Origin: Cerasicoccus maritimus | GTDB lineage: Bacteria; Verrucomicrobiota; Verrucomicrobiia; Opitutales; Cerasicoccaceae | Reading direction: 5' to 3' | Assembly: GCA_031296935.1 (NCBI GenBank) | Contig: JAVDPD010000008.1 | Coordinates: 106,216 to 170,215 of the forward strand | Length of the DNA stretch: 64,000 nucleotides | Shown: positions 2,870-10,143 of the stretch, one piece after another | Layout: every line of letters starts with the position of its first letter | Numbering within the stretch: the stretch's first letter is position 1 | Position numbers and translations under genes: made by a program | The notes under the pieces: generated by a model | The model's input: only the letters and a program-made list of their open reading frames with translations | What the model was told of the DNA's origin: nothing | Databases searched by the model: none

Positions 2870-3472
2870 ATGAAGAAAACGATCATCATCACCATTGCGC
2901 TCGGCTTGAGCGCAATTACCGGCTGGCTCGCTACCGGCTGCTCCAAAACAGAAATCGTGGAAGTTGCCCCTCCGGGTGTTTCCTTTGAAAAGCTAACCGA
3001 CGCACTTCACATGGTGCTCGAAAACGACCGCACGGTTTACACTCAGAAAGTGGTGAATCGACTGGTCAAAGAAGATAAGGTTATTAAGGCAAGTGAACAC
3101 TGGAGTGAAGACCAAGCTCTGCCATTGCCGGCGCAAATGTTCCGTATGGGCGCAGAGTTGACAGCCAGCAAGGACGCCTGGTTTAGCTATTCGCTGCAAT
3201 CTCTCTGGCCAATCAACAAGTCGAATGCCGCTGGGCAAACGGAAGTCGAAAAGAAGGGCCTTGAGTTTGTGGCTGCTAACGGTGGGGCTGAGCCATTCTA
3301 TGGCCAGGAAACCCTGGGCGGTCAGAATTACTTCACCGCAGTGTATGCCGATGTCGCTGTAGCGCCCGTTTGCGTATCTTGCCACAATGAGCATAAAGAC
3401 AGTCCTAAGACTGACTTCAAGCTCGGTGACGTAATGGGTGGCGTTGTGATCCGCATTCCGATGGATTCCTAG
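2870..3472 (+). CDS. Tll0287-like (DUF3365) heme-binding lipoprotein
   Basis: This 200-residue protein starts with a lipoprotein signal peptide (lipobox LATGC, C24) and so is probably anchored facing the periplasm. The body fits the Tll0287-like/DUF3365 family: the single c-type heme motif CVSCH (C168, C171, H172) is near the C-terminus, followed by a segment ending in GDVMGGVVIRIPM. Family members are small heme domains thought to sense redox state or gases, often as the sensory part of larger receptors; here the domain stands alone. It lies 9 bases before a mono-heme cytochrome c lipoprotein and is probably co-transcribed with it. Its role as an NO or redox sensor versus an electron carrier cannot be decided from sequence. 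Confidence 0.75.
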   Translation: MKKTIIITIALGLSAITGWLATGCSKTEIVEVAPPGVSFEKLTDALHMVLENDRTVYTQKVVNRLVKEDKVIKASEHWSEDQALPLPAQMFRMGAELTASKDAWFSYSLQSLWPINKSNAAGQTEVEKKGLEFVAANGGAEPFYGQETLGGQNYFTAVYADVAVAPVCVSCHNEHKDSPKTDFKLGDVMGGVVIRIPMDS

Positions 3473-3480
3473 TTGCCGCA

Positions 3481-3906
3481 ATGAACTTTGCGAAGCATAG
3501 CCTGCTTCTCACTGGATGTTTGATCCTGGTCGCTCTGTTCTCTTTGAATGGATGCGGCCAGGAGAGGACACCAGTGGTGGAGTCACCGGCAACAGTAGAG
3601 AAGCCCAAGCCATTCGATCCGATGGCGCTTACCCTTAGTGATCCTAAGCTAATCGAAGGGCGCGAACTATGGGTTCCGCGCTGCGGGCAATGCCATACAT
3701 CCGGACTCGGCGGCGCGCCTAAAATCGGTGACAAGGCCGCTTGGGCCTCGCGCATCGCACAAGGCAAAGAGGTGCTTTATGAGCACGCGATTAACGGATT
3801 TTCCGGCCCGCAAATGCTGATCATGCCAGCCAAGGGCGGCTTCACCGAATTAACTGATGAACAAGTCAAACTGTGCGTGGATTTTGTGGTCCATGCCAGC
3901 CAGTAA
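3481..3906 (+). CDS. Mono-heme cytochrome c lipoprotein (class I, c5-like)
   Basis: This 141-residue protein has a lipoprotein signal (SLNGC, C25), a short proline-rich linker, and a class I cytochrome c domain with CGQCH (C68, C71, H72). A likely distal methionine lies in the MLIMPAKGG stretch. The motif TDEQVKLCVDFVV near the C-terminus matches the last helix of small cytochromes such as c5. It is expected to shuttle electrons in the periplasm while tethered to a membrane. Only 8 bases separate it from the heme lipoprotein upstream and 29 bases from the truncated hemoglobin downstream, so the three probably form one transcript. Confidence 0.85.
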   Translation: MNFAKHSLLLTGCLILVALFSLNGCGQERTPVVESPATVEKPKPFDPMALTLSDPKLIEGRELWVPRCGQCHTSGLGGAPKIGDKAAWASRIAQGKEVLYEHAINGFSGPQMLIMPAKGGFTELTDEQVKLCVDFVVHASQ

Positions 3907-3935: not shown

Positions 3936-4313
3936 ATGAGCACTATCTATGATAAACTTGGCGGCGAGCCCGCCATCGATGCCGCAGTGGATATCTTCTA
4001 CGTGAAGGTTCTCGCGGATGACCGCATCAAGCACTTCTTCGTAGGTGTGGACATGGACAAGCAACGTGACCACCAAAAGAAATTCCTTACCTTCGCATTT
4101 GGCGGGCCTAGTAACTATTCTGGTCGCAGCATGGGCCCAGCCCACGCTAAGTTGGTTCAGGACATGGGCCTCAACGACACCCACTTCGACGCAGTGGTGG
4201 AAAACCTTGCTGCAACCCTTACTGAACTAGGCGTGCCGGATGAGCTCATCGGCGAAGTCGCTGCGGTCGCTGAGAGCGTTCGCGCCGACGTTTTAGGTAA
4301 GGCAACTGCTTAA
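3936..4313 (+). CDS. glbN: Group 1 truncated hemoglobin (trHbN)
   Basis: This 125-residue cytosolic globin matches group 1 truncated hemoglobins. It starts with STIYDKLGGEPAIDAAVDIFY, places a tyrosine at the B10 position (Y22), phenylalanines at the CD1 region (F34/F35), the double-glycine FGGPSNYSGRSM segment, and the proximal F8 histidine in PAHAKL (H70), followed by HFDAVVENL. trHbN proteins oxidise NO to nitrate with bound O2 or handle nitrite. Position after an NsrR-like regulator fits NO detoxification. The 195 bases that follow carry two hairpins and no gene, so this probably ends the first transcript of the island. Confidence 0.9.
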   Translation: MSTIYDKLGGEPAIDAAVDIFYVKVLADDRIKHFFVGVDMDKQRDHQKKFLTFAFGGPSNYSGRSMGPAHAKLVQDMGLNDTHFDAVVENLAATLTELGVPDELIGEVAAVAESVRADVLGKATA

Positions 4314-4508: not shown

Positions 4509-6479
4509 ATGGATATAAAACCGCCAGCGGAAGACCCCATTGTAATTATTGGCAATGGCATGGCGGGCTGGCGGCTGTGTCAGCAGTTAGTCGAGCGCGG
4601 GGTTAATCAGAAGCGCCGCATTATTATTTTCGGTGAAGAACCCCGCCCGGCGTATGACCGCGTCAACCTGACCAAAGCATTTTACCTCGACGACCCAGAC
4701 GAATTACTCTTGGCCAAGGCGGAATGGTATGAGAGTAACGGCATCGAACGCCGTCCAACGCGACACATCATCTCGATCGATCGCCAAGCTAAAACCCTGC
4801 ATGACAATCAAGGCGATTTAACGGCTTACGGGGATTGTATTCTGGCAACCGGCAGTCGGCCGTTCATTCCCAATGCGGAAGGCGTGAAGTCGCCAAAAGT
4901 CTTTGTTTATCGGACATTGCAGGACATTCAAAGCATCAAGGCGGTTGCAAAAAAGGGGCAGAGCTGCCTCGTGATTGGCGGTGGGCTGCTCGGGCTGGAA
5001 GCAGCCGACACGATGCGCCGCATGGGCTTGGAAACGTGCATTGTCCACAGCGCGAACTGCTTGATGAGCCGTCAGCTCACGCCCGACAGCTCGAGCTATT
5101 TGCTGCGCGAAGTAGCTCAGCGTGGCATCAGCGTGCGACTGATCACTCGAACTAAGGAGATTCAGCCAACCGAAGGCAGGCTCCGCGTCAGCTTTGACCA
5201 AGGTGAGCCTATGGACGTGGACCTCGTGGTGCTGGCGGCAGGCATACGCCCACGCGATGAGCTCGCGGTGCAGGCGGGTTTGGCAGTCGGCGTGCGCGGT
5301 GGGGGCGTTATAATTGACGATGCGCTGGCGACGGCGGATCCCAACATTTTTGCGATTGGCGAGTGCGTATCGCATCATGGCGTTATTTACGGTATCGTAG
5401 CACCTGCCTATCAACAAGCTGATGTTTTGGCGGCCAGGCTTGCGGGTAAAAAAGAATTTTACCGCGGCAGTGACCATTCTTGCCGACTCAAACTGCTAGG
5501 TATCGAAGTCAGCGTGTTTGGCGACTTCATGGGAGAAGGTACGACGCATGTTTATCGTAGTGAAAACTGTTACCGCGCCCTCGTCACCCGCTTGGGGCAC
5601 ATCGTCGGCGCGACGATTGTTGGCCCTTGGGACAAGGCGATGCTGGTCGAACGTGCGGTTCGCGAAAAGCGCTCTATTTCCCAGCGAGTCGCTGAGGCCT
5701 TTGTTCGCGACGGTGAAATTTTCAACGATCCAGCGGAAAGCTCGGTGCTCAATTGGCCGGATAGCGCGCTGATCTGCCACTGCACGAACACCAACTGCGG
5801 CTCACTACGCAAGGCAGTGGCGGGTGGCTGCTCAACGGTCAAGGCCTTGGGGGCGGAAACCGGGGCAGGGCGGGTCTGCGGCTCTTGTCTGCCACAGCTC
5901 GCGGAGTTTGTAGGGGAAGACGCGCAGGCATTGGCTGCGGCTGGCGCGCCACGCGGCAAGTGGCTGCTGATCATTTCGGCGGTTCTTGGCTTGGTGTTGG
6001 CATTGACGATTTTTTGTGCACCAGGGCTCCCCGCAGCACAGAGCGTGCAGGGCAGCTACTATCAATTGACACAGATTTGGACCGACTCGCTGACGAAGCA
6101 AATCACCGGCTACAGCTTGGCGGGCGTCTCGGCCATTGCGCTGCTGCTCTCGGCGCGCAAGCGGATTAAGTTTCTGTCCTTTGGGAACTACGGTTTCTGG
6201 CGTGCTGCGCATTCCTGGCTGGGAGTGACCACCATCGCCATCCTCTTTTTCCATACCGGAATGCACCTGGGAGAGAACCTGAATTTGTGGCTGATGATTT
6301 GTTTCCTCGGGTTGAATCTGGCAGGCGCACTGGCAGCAATTGCGGTGGCTGCCGAGAAGCGCATCGACGGCTACCTTGGCATGCGCATGCGACGATGGGC
6401 TCTCAAATCACACCTTTTGTTTTTTGCACCATACCCGATCCTGCTCGGGTTTCACATCGCTAAGGTTTACATCTATTGA
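4509..6479 (+). CDS. NirB-like FAD/NAD(P)H oxidoreductase with BFD [2Fe-2S] domain fused to a bis-heme b membrane domain
   Basis: The 656 residues fall into three parts. Residues 1 to about 410 are a pyridine nucleotide-disulfide oxidoreductase like the N-terminal half of NirB: FAD motif IIGNGMAGWRL near 12 and NAD(P)H motif VIGGGLLGLEAAD near 155. Residues 420-470 are a BFD-type domain with four cysteines placed for a [2Fe-2S] cluster (C423, C425, C457, C460). Residues about 485-656 form roughly five membrane helices. Two of them each carry a histidine pair spaced H-x13-H (H568/H582 and H635/H649), the arrangement that holds two stacked b hemes in ferric reductase, NOX and cytochrome b. The siroheme/[4Fe-4S] catalytic half of NirB is absent, so this is not a nitrite reductase by itself. 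It overlaps the start of the eleven-heme cytochrome gene. The inferred role is electron transfer between cytosolic NAD(P)H and the periplasm. Confidence 0.85.
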   Translation: MDIKPPAEDPIVIIGNGMAGWRLCQQLVERGVNQKRRIIIFGEEPRPAYDRVNLTKAFYLDDPDELLLAKAEWYESNGIERRPTRHIISIDRQAKTLHDNQGDLTAYGDCILATGSRPFIPNAEGVKSPKVFVYRTLQDIQSIKAVAKKGQSCLVIGGGLLGLEAADTMRRMGLETCIVHSANCLMSRQLTPDSSSYLLREVAQRGISVRLITRTKEIQPTEGRLRVSFDQGEPMDVDLVVLAAGIRPRDELAVQAGLAVGVRGGGVIIDDALATADPNIFAIGECVSHHGVIYGIVAPAYQQADVLAARLAGKKEFYRGSDHSCRLKLLGIEVSVFGDFMGEGTTHVYRSENCYRALVTRLGHIVGATIVGPWDKAMLVERAVREKRSISQRVAEAFVRDGEIFNDPAESSVLNWPDSALICHCTNTNCGSLRKAVAGGCSTVKALGAETGAGRVCGSCLPQLAEFVGEDAQALAAAGAPRGKWLLIISAVLGLVLALTIFCAPGLPAAQSVQGSYYQLTQIWTDSLTKQITGYSLAGVSAIALLLSARKRIKFLSFGNYGFWRAAHSWLGVTTIAILFFHTGMHLGENLNLWLMICFLGLNLAGALAAIAVAAEKRIDGYLGMRMRRWALKSHLLFFAPYPILLGFHIAKVYIY

Positions 6480-7825
6480 TGCTCAACTTCCTCAAAGGTA
6501 ATTGGTATTGGATGCTCGGAGTCACCGCGCTGGCGGGCTATCTGGGCTTTGCGTTGCAAGGGGGCGCTGAGCAGGTCCTGATGCCGGGCATAACCACGCA
6601 TGGGCATTATCAAATTGAACTCGATTGCGCAGCCTGCCACACGCCCAATATGGGCGTAAAACAGGAGTCTTGTAACGAATGTCATGCCGAGGAACTGGAG
6701 CGCGTGGATGACTCGCATCCGGTCATTAAATTCAAAGACCCGCGCAACGCCGAGCGTTTAGCGCACCTGGACGCCCGCTACTGCATTACCTGTCACCGTG
6801 AACATCAGCCAGAGCTCACGACACCAATGGGCCTCACGTTGCCAGCTGACTACTGCTACCACTGCCACCAGAATATCGCTGAGGAACGGCCGACCCACGT
6901 TGGTTTGGATTTTGACTCATGCGCCACTTCCGGCTGCCATAATTTTCATGATAACACTGGCCTTTATGAGCGTTTTCTGGTCGAGCACCTAGACGAGCCC
7001 GACTTCAAGCCCGATGCCTATCTGCGTGTGCGTGACTACTACCTGACGCACTTTGGGGAACGCGGTGAAGCCCTGGAGCAAGCCCGCGCGGAATATCCTC
7101 ATGAGTTAAAAGTTAGCCAGGATATTCTACATGACTGGTCGGCAACTTCGCATGCCGCCGCCGGGGTGAATTGCCGCGCTTGCCATGACATGCCCGACGC
7201 TGAGACCGGGGTAATGGTGTGGGTCGACAAGCCCAATTATGAGTCCTGCCAGAAGTGCCACGATTACGAGGTAAAGGGCTTTCTGGAGGGCAAGCACGGC
7301 ATGCGATTGGCGCACGGAATGAGCCCGATGACGCCCGGCATGGCGCGTCTGCCGATGAAGCCTGAGTCTGCGCATTTCGAACTCTCATGCATGTCTTGCC
7401 ACAGCAGCCATGAGTTCAACACCACCTTCGCAGCGGTGGACGCCTGTCTGCAATGCCACGACGACCAGCACTCAACCGCCTACAAGAATTCACCACACTT
7501 CCAGCTGTTCACGCAAGCCGAGGATGGCCTGCGCACACCTGATGAAGCCGTTTCCTGCGCCACTTGTCACTTGCCGCGCGTTGAGGTGTCGAAGTTTGGT
7601 GAAACGCTGGTCCGCGTGGACCATAATCAGAATAACAGCCTGCGGCCGAACGATAAAATGATCCGCGCGGCCTGCATCAATTGCCACGGGCTTCAATTCT
7701 CACTCGACGCCTTGGCCGATCCTCAGCTGATCCGCAATAACTTCAACGGACAGCCTAAGGTTCACGTCGAAAGCCTCGACATGGCGCGCGAAGAGCAAGA
7801 ACGGACTGAAGCCAGCCGCCGCTAA
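6479..7825 (+). CDS. Membrane-anchored eleven-heme c-type cytochrome
   Basis: About 448 residues from the ATG at 6479, which overlaps the TGA of the preceding gene by one base (an alternative TTG lies one codon earlier). An uncleaved-looking N-terminal hydrophobic helix (WMLGVTALAGYLGFAL) should anchor it with the heme domain in the periplasm. Ten CxxCH motifs are seen (CAACH, CNECH, CITCH, CYHCH, CRACH, CQKCH, CMSCH, CLQCH, CATCH, CINCH) plus one CxxxCH (CATSGCH), giving eleven predicted hemes. The segment from GKHGMRLAHG to CLQCHDDQHSTAYKNSPH recalls the spacing in hydroxylamine-oxidoreductase-type multiheme proteins, but this is only a resemblance. It is translationally coupled to the flavin/cytochrome b protein and is its obvious redox partner. 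The substrate is unknown: nitrite, NO, hydroxylamine or simply electron storage are possible. Confidence 0.88.
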   Translation: MLNFLKGNWYWMLGVTALAGYLGFALQGGAEQVLMPGITTHGHYQIELDCAACHTPNMGVKQESCNECHAEELERVDDSHPVIKFKDPRNAERLAHLDARYCITCHREHQPELTTPMGLTLPADYCYHCHQNIAEERPTHVGLDFDSCATSGCHNFHDNTGLYERFLVEHLDEPDFKPDAYLRVRDYYLTHFGERGEALEQARAEYPHELKVSQDILHDWSATSHAAAGVNCRACHDMPDAETGVMVWVDKPNYESCQKCHDYEVKGFLEGKHGMRLAHGMSPMTPGMARLPMKPESAHFELSCMSCHSSHEFNTTFAAVDACLQCHDDQHSTAYKNSPHFQLFTQAEDGLRTPDEAVSCATCHLPRVEVSKFGETLVRVDHNQNNSLRPNDKMIRAACINCHGLQFSLDALADPQLIRNNFNGQPKVHVESLDMAREEQERTEASRR

Positions 7826-7852: not shown

Positions 7853-9106
7853 TTAACTGTGCCTCTTGAGCGCGAGCGTGACATTGGCTCCGCCGAAACC
7901 ACTGCTATTCTTGAGCGCGATATTGGGAGCGCCTTCGCGGTTTTCGGTGAGGATTTCCACGCCTTCGATCTTCGGATCAATCTCGGTGACATGCGCCGAG
8001 CCGATCGTGAAATCTTCGTGCATCGAAAGGGCGGTGAACGCCGCTTCCATTGCGCTGGCTTGAGACAGCGCATGGCCGGTGAGCGCCTTGGTGCTGCTGA
8101 CTAGCGGACGGCTATCGGGGAATGCCTTGTTGAGCGCCTTGACCTCGGAGAGGTCGCCAATCGAAGTAGAGGTCGCGTGCGCGTTAACGTAGTCGACGTC
8201 TTCCGGATTAATCTGTGCGCTGTTCATCGCGATCTTCATCGACTCCGCCAAGCCGAAGCCTTCCGGGTGGGAAATGGCGACATTGTAGCCGTCTGAGGCT
8301 TGGCCCCAGCCGATCATTTCGGCGTAAATCTTGGCTCCGCGAGCCTTGGCCGTTTCCAGCTCTTCAAGCACCATGACCACTCCGCCACCGGTGCCGACGA
8401 AGCCGTTGCGGGCTTTGTCGAATGGGCGGGAAGCGATATCTGGATCCTTGGTTAGCGAAAGCGCGCGCATACCGGCAAATGGGAGAATGGCTTCGCGGTT
8501 GCCGTCTTCAGCGCCCACGACAAACATCCGCTTTTGGCGGCCCAGGGCAATCTCGTCATAGGCGAAACCTGCAGCATGGCCAGAGGAGGCGCAGGCCGAG
8601 GCGAAGCCGCAGGAGGACCCTAAAATCTTGAAACTGGCCACCATATTGAACGACAAAGCGCCCACTACAGACGAAACCACGGCCATCGGCGACACGCGGC
8701 CAACGCCCACTTGGTTCATGCGGGCTATGTTGTAGTGCATACCGCGGGCCGAGCCGGCGGAGGCGGTAAACATACCCGTTTCGCGGTTGGAAACTTCCTC
8801 TTCGGAAAGCCCGGCGTCTTCGATGGCCTGAAGCAAAGCGCAGTGTGCATACAGGACGTGCGGCGACATGCTGCGCAAGTGCTCGCGGCGAATCTTATAG
8901 GGCTCCGGAATGGTCCAGTCTTCGACGTCCATCGAGGAGCAGTCGAAGCCCTTGATGGTTCCGAGGACGCTGACCGGATCTTTCTCCAGAAATTCGTCAG
9001 TGAGGGCGATGCCGTGCTTGAGGCCCCGAAGACTCTCGGTGACGGTGGCGCGGTCATTCCCAATGCTGGTGATAAATCCTAGTCCAGTGATGGCTACTCT
9101 TGGCAT
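7853..9106 (-). CDS. Beta-ketoacyl-ACP synthase, FabF-like
   Basis: This 417-residue ketosynthase performs decarboxylative condensation of an acyl thioester with malonyl-ACP. The full KAS II-type catalytic set is present: nucleophile C172 in SACASSGHA, H310 in VNAHATSTSIGD, K340 and H345 in STKALTGHA, and the C-terminal glycine-rich SSGFGGANVTL. It is the last gene of a three-gene minus-strand set, acyl carrier protein, dehydratase, ketosynthase, separated from the dehydratase by 85 bases. There is no ketoreductase or enoyl reductase beside it, and fabD lies 9 kb away. Whether this is the housekeeping FAS ketosynthase or belongs to a special lipid or polyene path cannot be told from sequence alone. 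Confidence 0.9.
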   Translation of the reverse strand: MPRVAITGLGFITSIGNDRATVTESLRGLKHGIALTDEFLEKDPVSVLGTIKGFDCSSMDVEDWTIPEPYKIRREHLRSMSPHVLYAHCALLQAIEDAGLSEEEVSNRETGMFTASAGSARGMHYNIARMNQVGVGRVSPMAVVSSVVGALSFNMVASFKILGSSCGFASACASSGHAAGFAYDEIALGRQKRMFVVGAEDGNREAILPFAGMRALSLTKDPDIASRPFDKARNGFVGTGGGVVMVLEELETAKARGAKIYAEMIGWGQASDGYNVAISHPEGFGLAESMKIAMNSAQINPEDVDYVNAHATSTSIGDLSEVKALNKAFPDSRPLVSSTKALTGHALSQASAMEAAFTALSMHEDFTIGSAHVTEIDPKIEGVEILTENREGAPNIALKNSSGFGGANVTLALKRHS

Positions 9107-9191
9107 GATCGAAAAATATGGACGCTGAATTACGTCCTGACAATGGCTCTTTTCAGGTGTGAGGCGTCCGTCGGAAGATTATTCCAATGCG

Positions 9192-9662
9192 TTAAGCGTC
9201 CGTTTCCGCAGCGTAATCAAACTTGAGCGAGATCTCCTCGGCGAAGACGGCTTTTTCGCCGTTGACGAGGATCTTGCCCTCAAAGGTCGCCCCGGGGTGG
9301 CGGATGCGGCGGGCCTTGACTTGCATTTCCAGCTTATCGCCGGGCTTGCAAACGCGGGAGCAGCGCACGCCATCGCAGGCGGTAAAGAGGATGCGGCCCG
9401 GGTCTACTTTGGCGGTCAGGGAGTCGTCTCCCTCGGCTGTCAGCAGGTAAACGACTGCCAATTGCCCCAGCGCCTCCAGCATGATGGAAGCCGGAAAAAC
9501 CGGGTTGCCCTTAAAGTGTCCGCGGAGGAAATCTTCCTCGCCAGTAATGTGGTAGCTGCCAGTGATGAGTTTACCGTCGATCACCGCTTCCTGTACAAAC
9601 AGGAATGGATCGGCGTGGGGCAGGGCGTCTGCAATCGCGCCTCCGTCGATGTTAATCGCCAT
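9192..9662 (-). CDS. 3-hydroxyacyl-ACP dehydratase, FabZ-like hotdog protein
   Basis: This 156-residue hotdog-fold protein carries the FabZ signature: LPHADPFLFVQEAV at the N-terminus, and the catalytic pair H49 in GHFKGNPVFPASIMLEALGQ and E63, with the 14-residue separation seen in FabZ. The usual HFPGxPxxPG is altered to HFKGNPVFPAS, so it is a divergent member. It removes water from 3-hydroxyacyl-ACP. It lies 9 bases after the acyl carrier protein gene and 85 bases before the ketosynthase, in one probable operon. A role in standard fatty acid synthesis or in a dedicated acyl chain path are both open. Confidence 0.8.
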   Translation of the reverse strand: MAINIDGGAIADALPHADPFLFVQEAVIDGKLITGSYHITGEEDFLRGHFKGNPVFPASIMLEALGQLAVVYLLTAEGDDSLTAKVDPGRILFTACDGVRCSRVCKPGDKLEMQVKARRIRHPGATFEGKILVNGEKAVFAEEISLKFDYAAETDA

Positions 9663-9671
9663 TAGATGCGC

Positions 9672-10046
9672 TTAGGCGGAGAGCTTGGCGCTCACAAACT
9701 TCTTAACGTCGCCAATGGTCTGGAGATCAGCGAGTTCGGAATTATCGATGGTGATATCGAGGGATTCCTCTACCAGCATCACGACGTCGACCATCGTAAG
9801 CGAGTCTAAGCCAAGATCATCCATGATCTGCAAGTCGTCGGCGCCAGCTTCCTTGAGCTTGGGGCGCACTTCCGGTTCGCAGAAGCGTTGAATGATGCCA
9901 ATGATGACTACTGGAGCCTGGCTGACATCCCCTTCGTTGCGAAAAGCAATTGCCGCCTCGATTGTTTCGGGCGTGCAGCGTTTTAGGGAGTCACGCAGGT
10001 TCTCTTCCTGTTCAGGCGTAAGCGGGTTGTTCGATTCGGAACTCAT
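9672..10046 (-). CDS. Acyl carrier protein with N-terminal extension
   Basis: The second half of this about 124-residue protein is an acyl carrier domain with the phosphopantetheine serine in DDLGLDSLTMVDVVML, followed by helix II/III sequence. The first 45 or so residues (PLTPEQEENLRDSLKRCTPETI and on) are an extra charged helical segment not found in the usual 75-80 residue AcpP. The start is taken as the ATG at 10046 (MSSESNN); an ATG three codons earlier at 10055 is also possible, and neither has a clear Shine-Dalgarno. It leads the dehydratase and ketosynthase genes and is presumably their carrier. The extension may dock a specific partner. Confidence 0.8.
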   Translation of the reverse strand: MSSESNNPLTPEQEENLRDSLKRCTPETIEAAIAFRNEGDVSQAPVVIIGIIQRFCEPEVRPKLKEAGADDLQIMDDLGLDSLTMVDVVMLVEESLDITIDNSELADLQTIGDVKKFVSAKLSA

Positions 10047-10143
10047 AAGCCGCATTGATAAAGCGGTGCGGACGACCTTTTGTAAATCCTATTTTTCAAT
10101 GTGATTTCTGGAGAACCAATTCTTCGTCCTGCGGTCGTAAAAA

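Follow-up and report, generated by a model that had tools for sequence, protein, structure and literature searches.

NirB proteins combine an N-terminal half, made of a FAD/NAD(P)H domain and a BFD domain with four cysteine residues, with a siroheme/4Fe-4S catalytic half, and NirB-type halves of known enzymes oxidise NADH. In NOX enzymes, ferric reductases and MsrQ, electrons from cytosolic NAD(P)H traverse the membrane by way of two b hemes that paired histidine residues on two helices hold in place. Quinol is the usual electron source of multiheme cytochromes. Cytochromes with many hemes include the eight-heme nitrite reductase (ONR) and NrfA, as well as the conductive cytochromes MtrC, MtrF and UndA, which carry many hemes per chain.

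The window analysed here, a stretch of 64,000 nucleotides from Cerasicoccus maritimus (Verrucomicrobiota), encodes a fusion protein and an undecaheme cytochrome that share features with each of these systems. Judged from their sequences, the two proteins very probably form a quinone-independent transmembrane electron wire. That its purpose is to handle NO or related N-oxides in nitrate-assimilating bacteria is an even bet, and the wire and this purpose taken as a whole are given a probability of roughly 0.55. If true, passing NAD(P)H electrons straight to an eleven-heme chain would be a compact alternative to quinol feeding, and the pair would be a route wiring cytosolic metabolism to periplasmic chemistry.

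The fusion protein and its relatives

The fusion gene comprises the following features:
4509 to 6479, + strand: fusion protein of 656 aa, with a NirB-type FAD/NAD(P)H half, a BFD [2Fe-2S] domain and a five-helix membrane domain
4539 to 5405, + strand: FAD/NAD(P)H oxidoreductase domain, residues 11-299 (PF07992, Pyr_redox_2, 2.3e-52)
5769 to 5909, + strand: BFD-like [2Fe-2S] domain, residues 421-467, with Cys 423/425/457/460 (PF04324, Fer2_BFD, 6.1e-9)
5964 to 6473, + strand: membrane domain, residues 486-655, recognized by its conserved histidines and a profile match to stand-alone membrane proteins

The single 656-residue chain with these three parts, described in an earlier note on this DNA, is confirmed by the open reading frame, which contains no internal stop, and by the Pfam and TIGR02374 matches; residues C423, C425, C457 and C460 and the pairs H568/H582 and H635/H649 also lie where the note had placed them. 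The NirB model TIGR02374 aligns residues 11-468 with profile positions 1-465 of 794, and scores 417.2 bits, below its curated cut-off of 578.35. As the match is restricted to this part of the profile, the siroheme half of NirB is absent, as claimed, and no NIR_SIR match (PF01077/PF03460) was found in the fusion at E ≤ 0.1; the membrane domain replaces the catalytic half. In a tree of 12 fusions and 13 NirB N-terminal halves, the fusions form one group (support 99/97) that adjoins five NirB halves from the same phylum under a midpoint root only. Given this common grouping, the fusion is not the product of a sequencing frameshift joining two genes, which had been named as a possible artefact. 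A separate NirB-like gene is also present in the same genome. Residue 180 occupies the place of an NADH-preferring glutamate; the window copy has H, and 14 of the 18 copies that can be read at this position have E.

The four BFD cysteines are kept in all 19 readable copies of the fusion. In the membrane domain, H568 and H582 lie in helix 3 and H635 and H649 in or at helix 5, with 13 residues between the members of each pair. H568, H582 and H635 are present in 19/19 copies and H649 in 18/19, so that the complete set, whose loss among homologues the earlier note had proposed to look for, is conserved with the exception of G770, which has R at 649. The count of five helices is based on a crude hydropathy scale whose threshold some soluble segments pass too: exactly five are seen in the homologue G104 (85% identical), but the same threshold fails to pick up helix 3 in G210 and the window copy, and helix 4 in three others. 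An RKR sequence following helix 2 is invariant (11/11), consistent with a cytosolic loop at this point. AlphaFold models built on three close rows apiece were unusable, with mean pLDDT values of 35.6 and 44.7, the latter, for the fusion membrane domain, being too low for fold comparison, and a profile search of this domain against the PDB returned no match up to E 10. DUF4405 was rejected as an identity for the domain, with matches in 4/11 members, all below cut-off, and an hhalign probability of only 15 to DUF4405 proteins. Two of 11 members match Ni_hydr_CYTB.

By profile comparison, the membrane domain is closer to a set of unnamed stand-alone membrane proteins than to ferric reductases. 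It matches the former (L087-L093) with a probability of 98.3 (E 1.9e-14), against 43 in hhalign with 17 ferric-reductase-like proteins; PF01794 (ferric reductase) is matched by one of 11 fusion membrane domains, weakly (E 0.31). Of the likeness to NOX and ferric reductases put forward previously, the paired histidines on two of the membrane helices stand, being present and conserved, but the domain is not a clear member of the ferric reductases and its closest relatives are different proteins. The fusion would work as NOX, ferric reductases and MsrQ do, sending electrons from cytosolic NAD(P)H over a pair of b hemes; its flavin module nevertheless belongs to another family, is N-terminal, and is accompanied by an extra [2Fe-2S] cluster.

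Two H-x13-H pairs are found in six of the seven unnamed proteins, the short L088 showing one. The surrounding clusters were read for three of these seven loci (L198-L200). In all three, the membrane protein is flanked by a cNMP/4Fe-4S ferredoxin protein, which in L199 carries an FHA domain too, and by an adjoining decaheme cytochrome. The unnamed proteins therefore resemble the fusion in their paired histidines and in their multiheme neighbour, but they are separate polypeptides with, by eye, an insert ahead of the last helix, and their input has cNMP and 4Fe-4S ferredoxin domains instead of FAD and BFD domains. Their position between a ferredoxin protein and a decaheme suggests that the cytosolic inputs are interchangeable, and reveals an unnamed family of membrane protein-cytochrome pairs whose inputs can apparently be swapped. 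A broader proposal, advanced here tentatively, is that the fusion may belong to a modular, so far undescribed superfamily of diheme-b proteins of the inner membrane that join interchangeable cytosolic inputs directly to anchored multiheme cytochromes and bypass quinones, with this branch feeding a periplasmic heme-Cache acceptor (see below) for nitric-oxide defence. In line with the earlier note, which knew of no family with this fusion, a search of the open-access literature found no described family for the fusion or for the membrane-cytochrome module.

The undecaheme cytochrome and conservation of the pair

The second gene of the pair comprises:
6479 to 7825, + strand: undecaheme cytochrome c of 448 aa, with an N-terminal membrane anchor, 10 CxxCH motifs and one CX4CH motif
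6626 to 6940, + strand: N-terminal heme domain, hemes 1-5, residues 50-154 (Cytochrom_c3_2, 2e-16 over residues 43-131; heme 5 is the CX4CH motif)
7151 to 7687, + strand: C-terminal heme domain, hemes 6-11, residues 225-403 (ONR/NrfA matches in the PDB)

The start of the cytochrome is likely the ATG at 6479, with a TTG at 6476 as an alternative. With this ATG, the start overlaps the TGA of the fusion by one base, in agreement with the overlap noted before, and the cytochrome is probably translationally coupled to the fusion. The two genes adjoin in 20/20 same-phylum genomes carrying the cytochrome, which answers the earlier question of whether a multiheme gene is always adjacent and argues against a chance association. 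They lie on the same strand, and in the 19 loci measured the position of the cytochrome start codon ranges from a 4-base overlap with the fusion stop to 25 bases downstream of it. Searches of a 387-genome sample starting from the cytochrome or from the membrane domain recovered the same 9 genomes, no fusion was seen without the cytochrome, and the trees of the two proteins are nearly congruent. All 20 loci with the pair belong to one phylum. A scan of genome contigs with two short patterns, which missed more distant relatives that other searches found, gave two Opitutales relatives as full matches and ten BFD-only matches in Luteimonas, Lysobacter, Pseudoxanthomonas and Xanthomonas. No relative of the pair was confirmed on viral contigs, and no plasmid matched the cytochrome.

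The eleven heme motifs claimed for the cytochrome are found in the window copy, but three of 19 relatives have ten, heme 6 being naturally absent. By hydropathy, the N-terminal anchor passes in 11 of 12 homologues; the window copy falls below the threshold. The segment spanning this anchor and hemes 1-4 aligns with the N-terminal part of the decahemes that accompany the stand-alone membrane proteins (probability 97.9, E 6.3e-13). All 19 cytochromes share ten invariant histidines that belong to no heme motif, while H225 and H311 are missing in exactly the three homologues without heme 6. Since H225 falls within the deleted stretch, the loss of H311 is the only independent one. The eleven-heme proteins accordingly have twelve conserved candidate ligands, one above need, and in the ten-heme variants the invariant histidines equal the hemes in number, leaving no obvious open heme site. 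This pattern, together with the absence of CxxCK motifs from all 19 cytochromes, makes an all-bis-histidine wire likelier than an NrfA-like enzyme.

Neighbouring genes and the proposed electron route

Four genes precede the pair:
2260 to 2697, + strand: Rrf2-family regulator of 145 aa, NsrR/RirA-like, first gene of the cluster (PF02082, 2.1e-33)
2870 to 3472, + strand: stand-alone heme-Cache (Tll0287-like/DUF3365) protein with one CxxCH (PF11845, 8.3e-19)
3481 to 3906, + strand: monoheme cytochrome c (Cytochrome_CBB3/Cytochrom_C matches)
3936 to 4313, + strand: truncated hemoglobin (PF01152, 1.2e-19)

The regulator scores 122.6 bits with the NsrR model (cut-off 182) and 119.2 bits with RirA (cut-off 193), both below cut-off; it is found in three of the 20 clusters, with homologues in G104 and G210, and is absent from the stretch read in 17. 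A heme-Cache homologue is present in the cluster in all 20 genomes. Those read (19/19) have the CxxCH motif and no cysteine usable as an axial ligand, and the window protein, whose sole Pfam match is PF11845, has no fused signalling module. A Cys-less heme-Cache protein fused to a signalling module binds NO tightly, which favours an NO context; the same study concludes that stand-alone domains appear redox-related rather than NO-sensing, which counts against it (PMC12889525). The stand-alone example in that study carries an axial Cys, so the Cys-less stand-alone proteins described here fall between its two classes. The window heme-Cache protein, by its lipobox read by eye, and the monoheme cytochrome c, also by eye, are possible lipoproteins; the latter has homologues in 10/20 loci. 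A globin is encoded in 14 loci, as a truncated hemoglobin in three and a different Hmp-type globin in 11, with none in the stretch read in the other six; the G544 locus is among those with a globin. Nitrate-assimilation genes adjoin the pair in 9/20 loci and lie elsewhere in the genome in three others looked at. The heme-Cache and globin counts point to nitric-oxide chemistry alongside nitrate assimilation, and suggest what heme-Cache proteins and globins may do next to nitrate assimilation in a little-studied phylum.

By analogy with its family, the FAD of the NirB-type half would be reduced by NADH or NADPH, and the BFD cluster would relay single electrons. As the conserved histidines and the topology suggest, two b hemes would then carry the electrons through the inner membrane, a cytosolic-side heme on H568/H635 and a periplasmic-side heme on H582/H649. 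Entry into the anchored cytochrome may occur via its N-terminal hemes, the domain shared with the decahemes, and from the histidine count the cytochrome would be a low-spin, all-bis-histidine chain that passes electrons out to a partner in the periplasm, for which the Cys-less heme-Cache protein and the monoheme cytochrome c are the likeliest candidates. The neighbouring globin could be the cytosolic arm of N-oxide handling.

The resemblance of the C-terminal heme domain to ONR/NrfA chains makes a catalytic cytochrome possible and counts against the wire: the protein itself might be an N-oxide reductase, with a C-terminal heme reducing periplasmic nitrite, NO or hydroxylamine. We consider this rather unlikely. 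Its best PDB profile matches are the eight-heme nitrite reductase (1.9e-9 for the whole sequence, 1.5e-5 for the best stretch) and NrfA, PF02335 matches 10/11 cytochromes at E ≤ 0.01, and hhalign to NrfA reaches 94.3% over 69 columns around hemes 10-11; in the PDB matches, the likeness to ONR/NrfA is most notable along the succession heme 10, HxQ...P, heme 11. Nitrate genes lie nearby, and the G210 cluster contains ResB/CcsA-type assembly genes. The lack of CxxCK, to which CxxCH exceptions are known among NrfA/ONR catalytic hemes, the ligand count of the ten-heme variants, the extra c3-like N-terminal hemes and the membrane anchor nevertheless set the cytochrome apart. Moreover, the resemblance extends beyond the nitrite reductases, since three octaheme proteins from the same phylum (L130, L134 and L144) also align with hemes 8-11, and of 12 genomes examined five encode a separate NrfA, which in G770 is split into two pieces. 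A wholly NrfA-like cytochrome was set aside on the absence of CxxCK and the octaheme matches. An improbable alternative starts from the other end of the chain: NasB/NasC-type proteins are electron donors for cytosolic nitrate assimilation, and the FAD and BFD half alone resembles such donors, so that, with nitrate genes adjoining in nine loci, the cytochrome could be secondary. Against this, the nitrate operon of the same genome lies away from the pair with its own DmsBC-like and CysJ-like genes, and the fusion has its cytochrome wherever it was seen.

An electron wire is reversible in principle, and its direction is fixed by none of the present tests, so a periplasmic donor might be oxidised and NAD(P)+ reduced through the same chain. 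We regard such inward flow as very improbable, as it would be uphill unless the donor were very reducing, and the NADH oxidation known for NirB-type halves speaks against it. A conduit reducing external metals or other extracellular acceptors, a quite improbable reading, would account for the MtrC/MtrF domain match in 10/11 cytochromes (above the Pfam cut-off in the window copy) and for porin-like genes near the pair in 5/20 loci; in two loci these are strong Alginate_exp matches or close homologues, and in three the matches are weaker. Unlike MtrC, MtrF and UndA, however, the cytochrome has an N-terminal inner-membrane anchor and is coupled to a membrane flavoprotein of the NAD(P)H type; no second multiheme cytochrome appears among the ORFs listed for the stretches surrounding the pair, and the globin and heme-Cache neighbours would be left unexplained. 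For the proposed quinone-independent wire, N-oxide chemistry is now preferred to Fe(III) as the context.

Domain anatomy of the fusion and its membrane relatives

The proposal that the fusion and the adjoining multiheme cytochrome would together form an electron wire from NAD(P)H to the periplasm is well supported by the anatomy of the two proteins and by their co-inheritance. The two ORFs, and a further row of ORFs noticed beside them, lie as follows:

4509-6479: fusion, intact ORF of 656 residues
ending at 7825: cytochrome, intact ORF directly after the fusion
7853-10055, minus strand: consecutive ketosynthase-like, FabZ-like and acyl-carrier-like ORFs (labels by eye)

Pfam places Pyr_redox_2 at residues 11-299 and Fer2_BFD at 421-467 of the fusion, with no match above cut-off in the C-terminal membrane part. 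The NirB model aligns only over residues 11-468 (417 bits, cut-off 578), so that this part of the fusion corresponds to the electron-input half of NirB without its catalytic half, confirming the earlier note's single chain of NirB-type half and BFD domain lacking the siroheme half. All four BFD cysteines are found in 19/19 fusion copies. Residue 180 closes the second strand of the NAD site, a position at which Glu marks NADH use; it is E in 14 of 18 readable copies, while the window copy shares H with G104 and G786, and G210 has Q. The window protein may thus prefer either NADH or NADPH.

The five helices ascribed to the membrane domain are all present in homologue G104 by crude hydropathy (486-504, 531-549, 567-585, 595-613 and 637-655). 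The same threshold, which some soluble segments also exceed, misses helix 3 in the window copy and G210, and helix 4 in G542, G447 and G433. The membrane histidines are almost fully retained, H568, H582 and H635 each in 19/19 copies and H649 in 18/19. The exception, G770 (locus L202, genome contamination 6%), has R at position 649, which may reflect true divergence or faulty assembly. Helix 2 is followed by RKR without exception; taken with a cytosolic N-terminal half, this makes helices 3 and 5 probably parallel, which would put the H568/H635 pair on the cytosolic side and H582/H649 on the periplasmic side.

The membrane-domain profile has no match among PDB sequences, and profile comparison gives a probability of 15 against 30 DUF4405 matches and of 43 against 17 ferric-reductase-like proteins. 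The closest functional comparison is transmembrane reduction of the NOX/MsrQ type, the likeness being one of function, with membership in that family no more than possible. A probability of 98.3 (E 1.9e-14, 125 columns) was obtained against seven stand-alone membrane proteins, themselves collected by the membrane-domain profile search of 387 genomes. Six of the seven carry both H-x13-H pairs, the short L088 having one, and a gene for a 10-CxxCH cytochrome adjoins the two-pair membrane protein in each of the three loci covered over a longer stretch (L198 from G283, L199 from G380 and L200 from G180). The other neighbour carries cNMP-binding and 4Fe-4S ferredoxin domains in the two loci run on Pfam (L198 and L199), with an FHA domain too in L199. 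Pfam and NCBIfam give no family name for the two stand-alone proteins searched against them. This profile kinship, together with the histidine pairs, the cytochrome neighbours and the differing input proteins, makes the window's membrane domain look like one offshoot of a larger conduit family that has no name and whose inputs can be exchanged. L199 also encodes, nearby, an FNR-type FAD/NAD protein that carries FHA and Fer2 domains.

The cytochrome: electron chain or enzyme

The cytochrome carries 10 CxxCH motifs and one CX4CH, and its likely start codon shares one base with the stop of the fusion, in agreement with the earlier note; a TTG three bases upstream is an alternative start. An N-terminal membrane anchor exceeds the hydropathy threshold in 11/12 homologues and falls below it in the window copy. 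The anchor plus hemes 1-4 match the N-termini of the decaheme cytochromes from the stand-alone membrane-protein loci (probability 97.9, E 6.3e-13), a similarity that would fit a role in docking towards the b hemes.

In the C-terminal region, profile matches fall on eight-heme nitrite reductase (whole sequence 1.9e-9, best stretch 1.5e-5) and on NrfA chains, so that the cytochrome may be catalytic, but octahemes of Verrucomicrobiota match as well, over hemes 8-11. No CxxCK was found in any of 19 cytochromes. Ten non-motif histidines are invariant across these 19 (43, 80, 109, 140, 157, 273, 299, 331, 340 and 382). H225 and H311 are present in 16/19 and absent from exactly the three members without heme 6, where H225 falls in the deleted stretch and position 311 holds D or E; these natural ten-heme variants are L226 (G851), L227 (G833) and L228 (G879). 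H170 (16/19) and H41 (13/19) vary without loss of a heme. The candidate ligands therefore number ten, all invariant, in the ten-heme members, and twelve, one beyond the heme count, in the eleven-heme members. The simplest reading is that all hemes would be bis-histidine ligated and the cytochrome an electron chain, and the count favours a wire over an enzyme. An NrfA-like active site can, however, hold a conserved non-ligand histidine, and the count therefore falls short of proof.

Distribution and co-inheritance

When the whole fusion protein was searched against 273 genomes from the order, full-length matches numbered three: the window copy, one in G104 at 86% identity and one in G210 at 58%. 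Among 387 Verrucomicrobiota genomes, the cytochrome profile matched in 9; the membrane-domain profile matched strongly (E <1e-60) in the same 9 and weakly (1e-6 to 1e-10) in 7 others. Further cytochrome searches matched in 5/6, 9/165 and 3/68 genomes, in sets overlapping the earlier ones. In total 20 genomes encode the cytochrome, and in 20/20 of them the fusion adjoins it, so that the adjacency which the earlier note asked about is conserved; they include G789, whose fusion is cut by a contig end, and G922, whose cytochrome lies in two pieces on separate contigs. Where measured (19 loci), the cytochrome start ranges from a 4-base overlap to 25 bases downstream of the fusion stop. No full-length fusion without the cytochrome was seen in searches that included the 273 genomes of the order and 387 of the phylum. 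All 20 genomes belong to one phylum, since the genome-wide searches centred there and the one scan that reached further had a narrow scope.

In a midpoint-rooted tree that also held 13 NirB N-terminal halves, a single group unites the 12 fusions (support 99/97). The fusion and cytochrome trees are congruent apart from small rearrangements among near relatives; long branches, including G544 and G474, drew a warning from the program.

Neighbouring genes

A purpose for the pair in NO or N-oxide chemistry would rest on its neighbours. A heme-Cache protein (PF11845) is encoded within the cluster in 20/20 loci, with no candidate axial-ligand Cys in the 19 read. A preprint (PMC12889525) reports tight NO binding by a heme-Cache protein that has a signalling domain but lacks the axial Cys, whereas a stand-alone one ligated by Cys/His showed weak NO binding and an apparent redox role; those of the clusters resemble the redox type in being stand-alone and the NO-binding type in lacking the Cys. 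A globin gene occurs in 14/20 clusters (truncated hemoglobin in 3, Hmp-type in 11), none being found in those of G469, G770, G542, G447, G433 and G793. Clusters also hold a monoheme cytochrome c (10/20) and an NsrR/RirA-like regulator (3/20). The G210 cluster contains ResB and CcsA-type genes for the assembly of cytochrome c (L041 4071-7006), as if it carried a maturation system of its own. Porin-like outer-membrane genes lie close to the pair in 5/20 loci: Alginate_exp in L037, a close homologue of it in L036, and genes of weaker similarity in L032, L202 and L227.

Nitrate-assimilation genes adjoin the pair in 9/20 genomes (G469, G542, G447, G433, G429, G426, G474, G833 and G879) and lie elsewhere in all three others inspected (G000, the window's own genome, G210 and G544); the remaining 8 were judged from the cluster alone. 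For the G426 cluster the labels come from models of the NirA family, CysJ and the nitrate-ABC ATPase; the rest are labelled by similarity to it, and substrate-binding and permease genes by eye. The own-genome gene of substrate-binding/permease type has a single match, to a model for sulfonate binding, and this falls below cut-off. All 12/12 genomes examined have siroheme reductase domains. In the window genome's own nitrate operon (L201, contig G000:C18), a molybdopterin enzyme adjoins a membrane protein that fuses 4Fe-4S and DmsC-like parts; NirA-like and CysJ-like genes follow, and the operon apparently encodes a membrane-linked assimilatory nitrate reductase. The same genome encodes a NirB-like protein of 993 residues (L205 5382-8363, G000:C6), whose C-terminus resembles, by eye, a fused NirD/Rieske domain.
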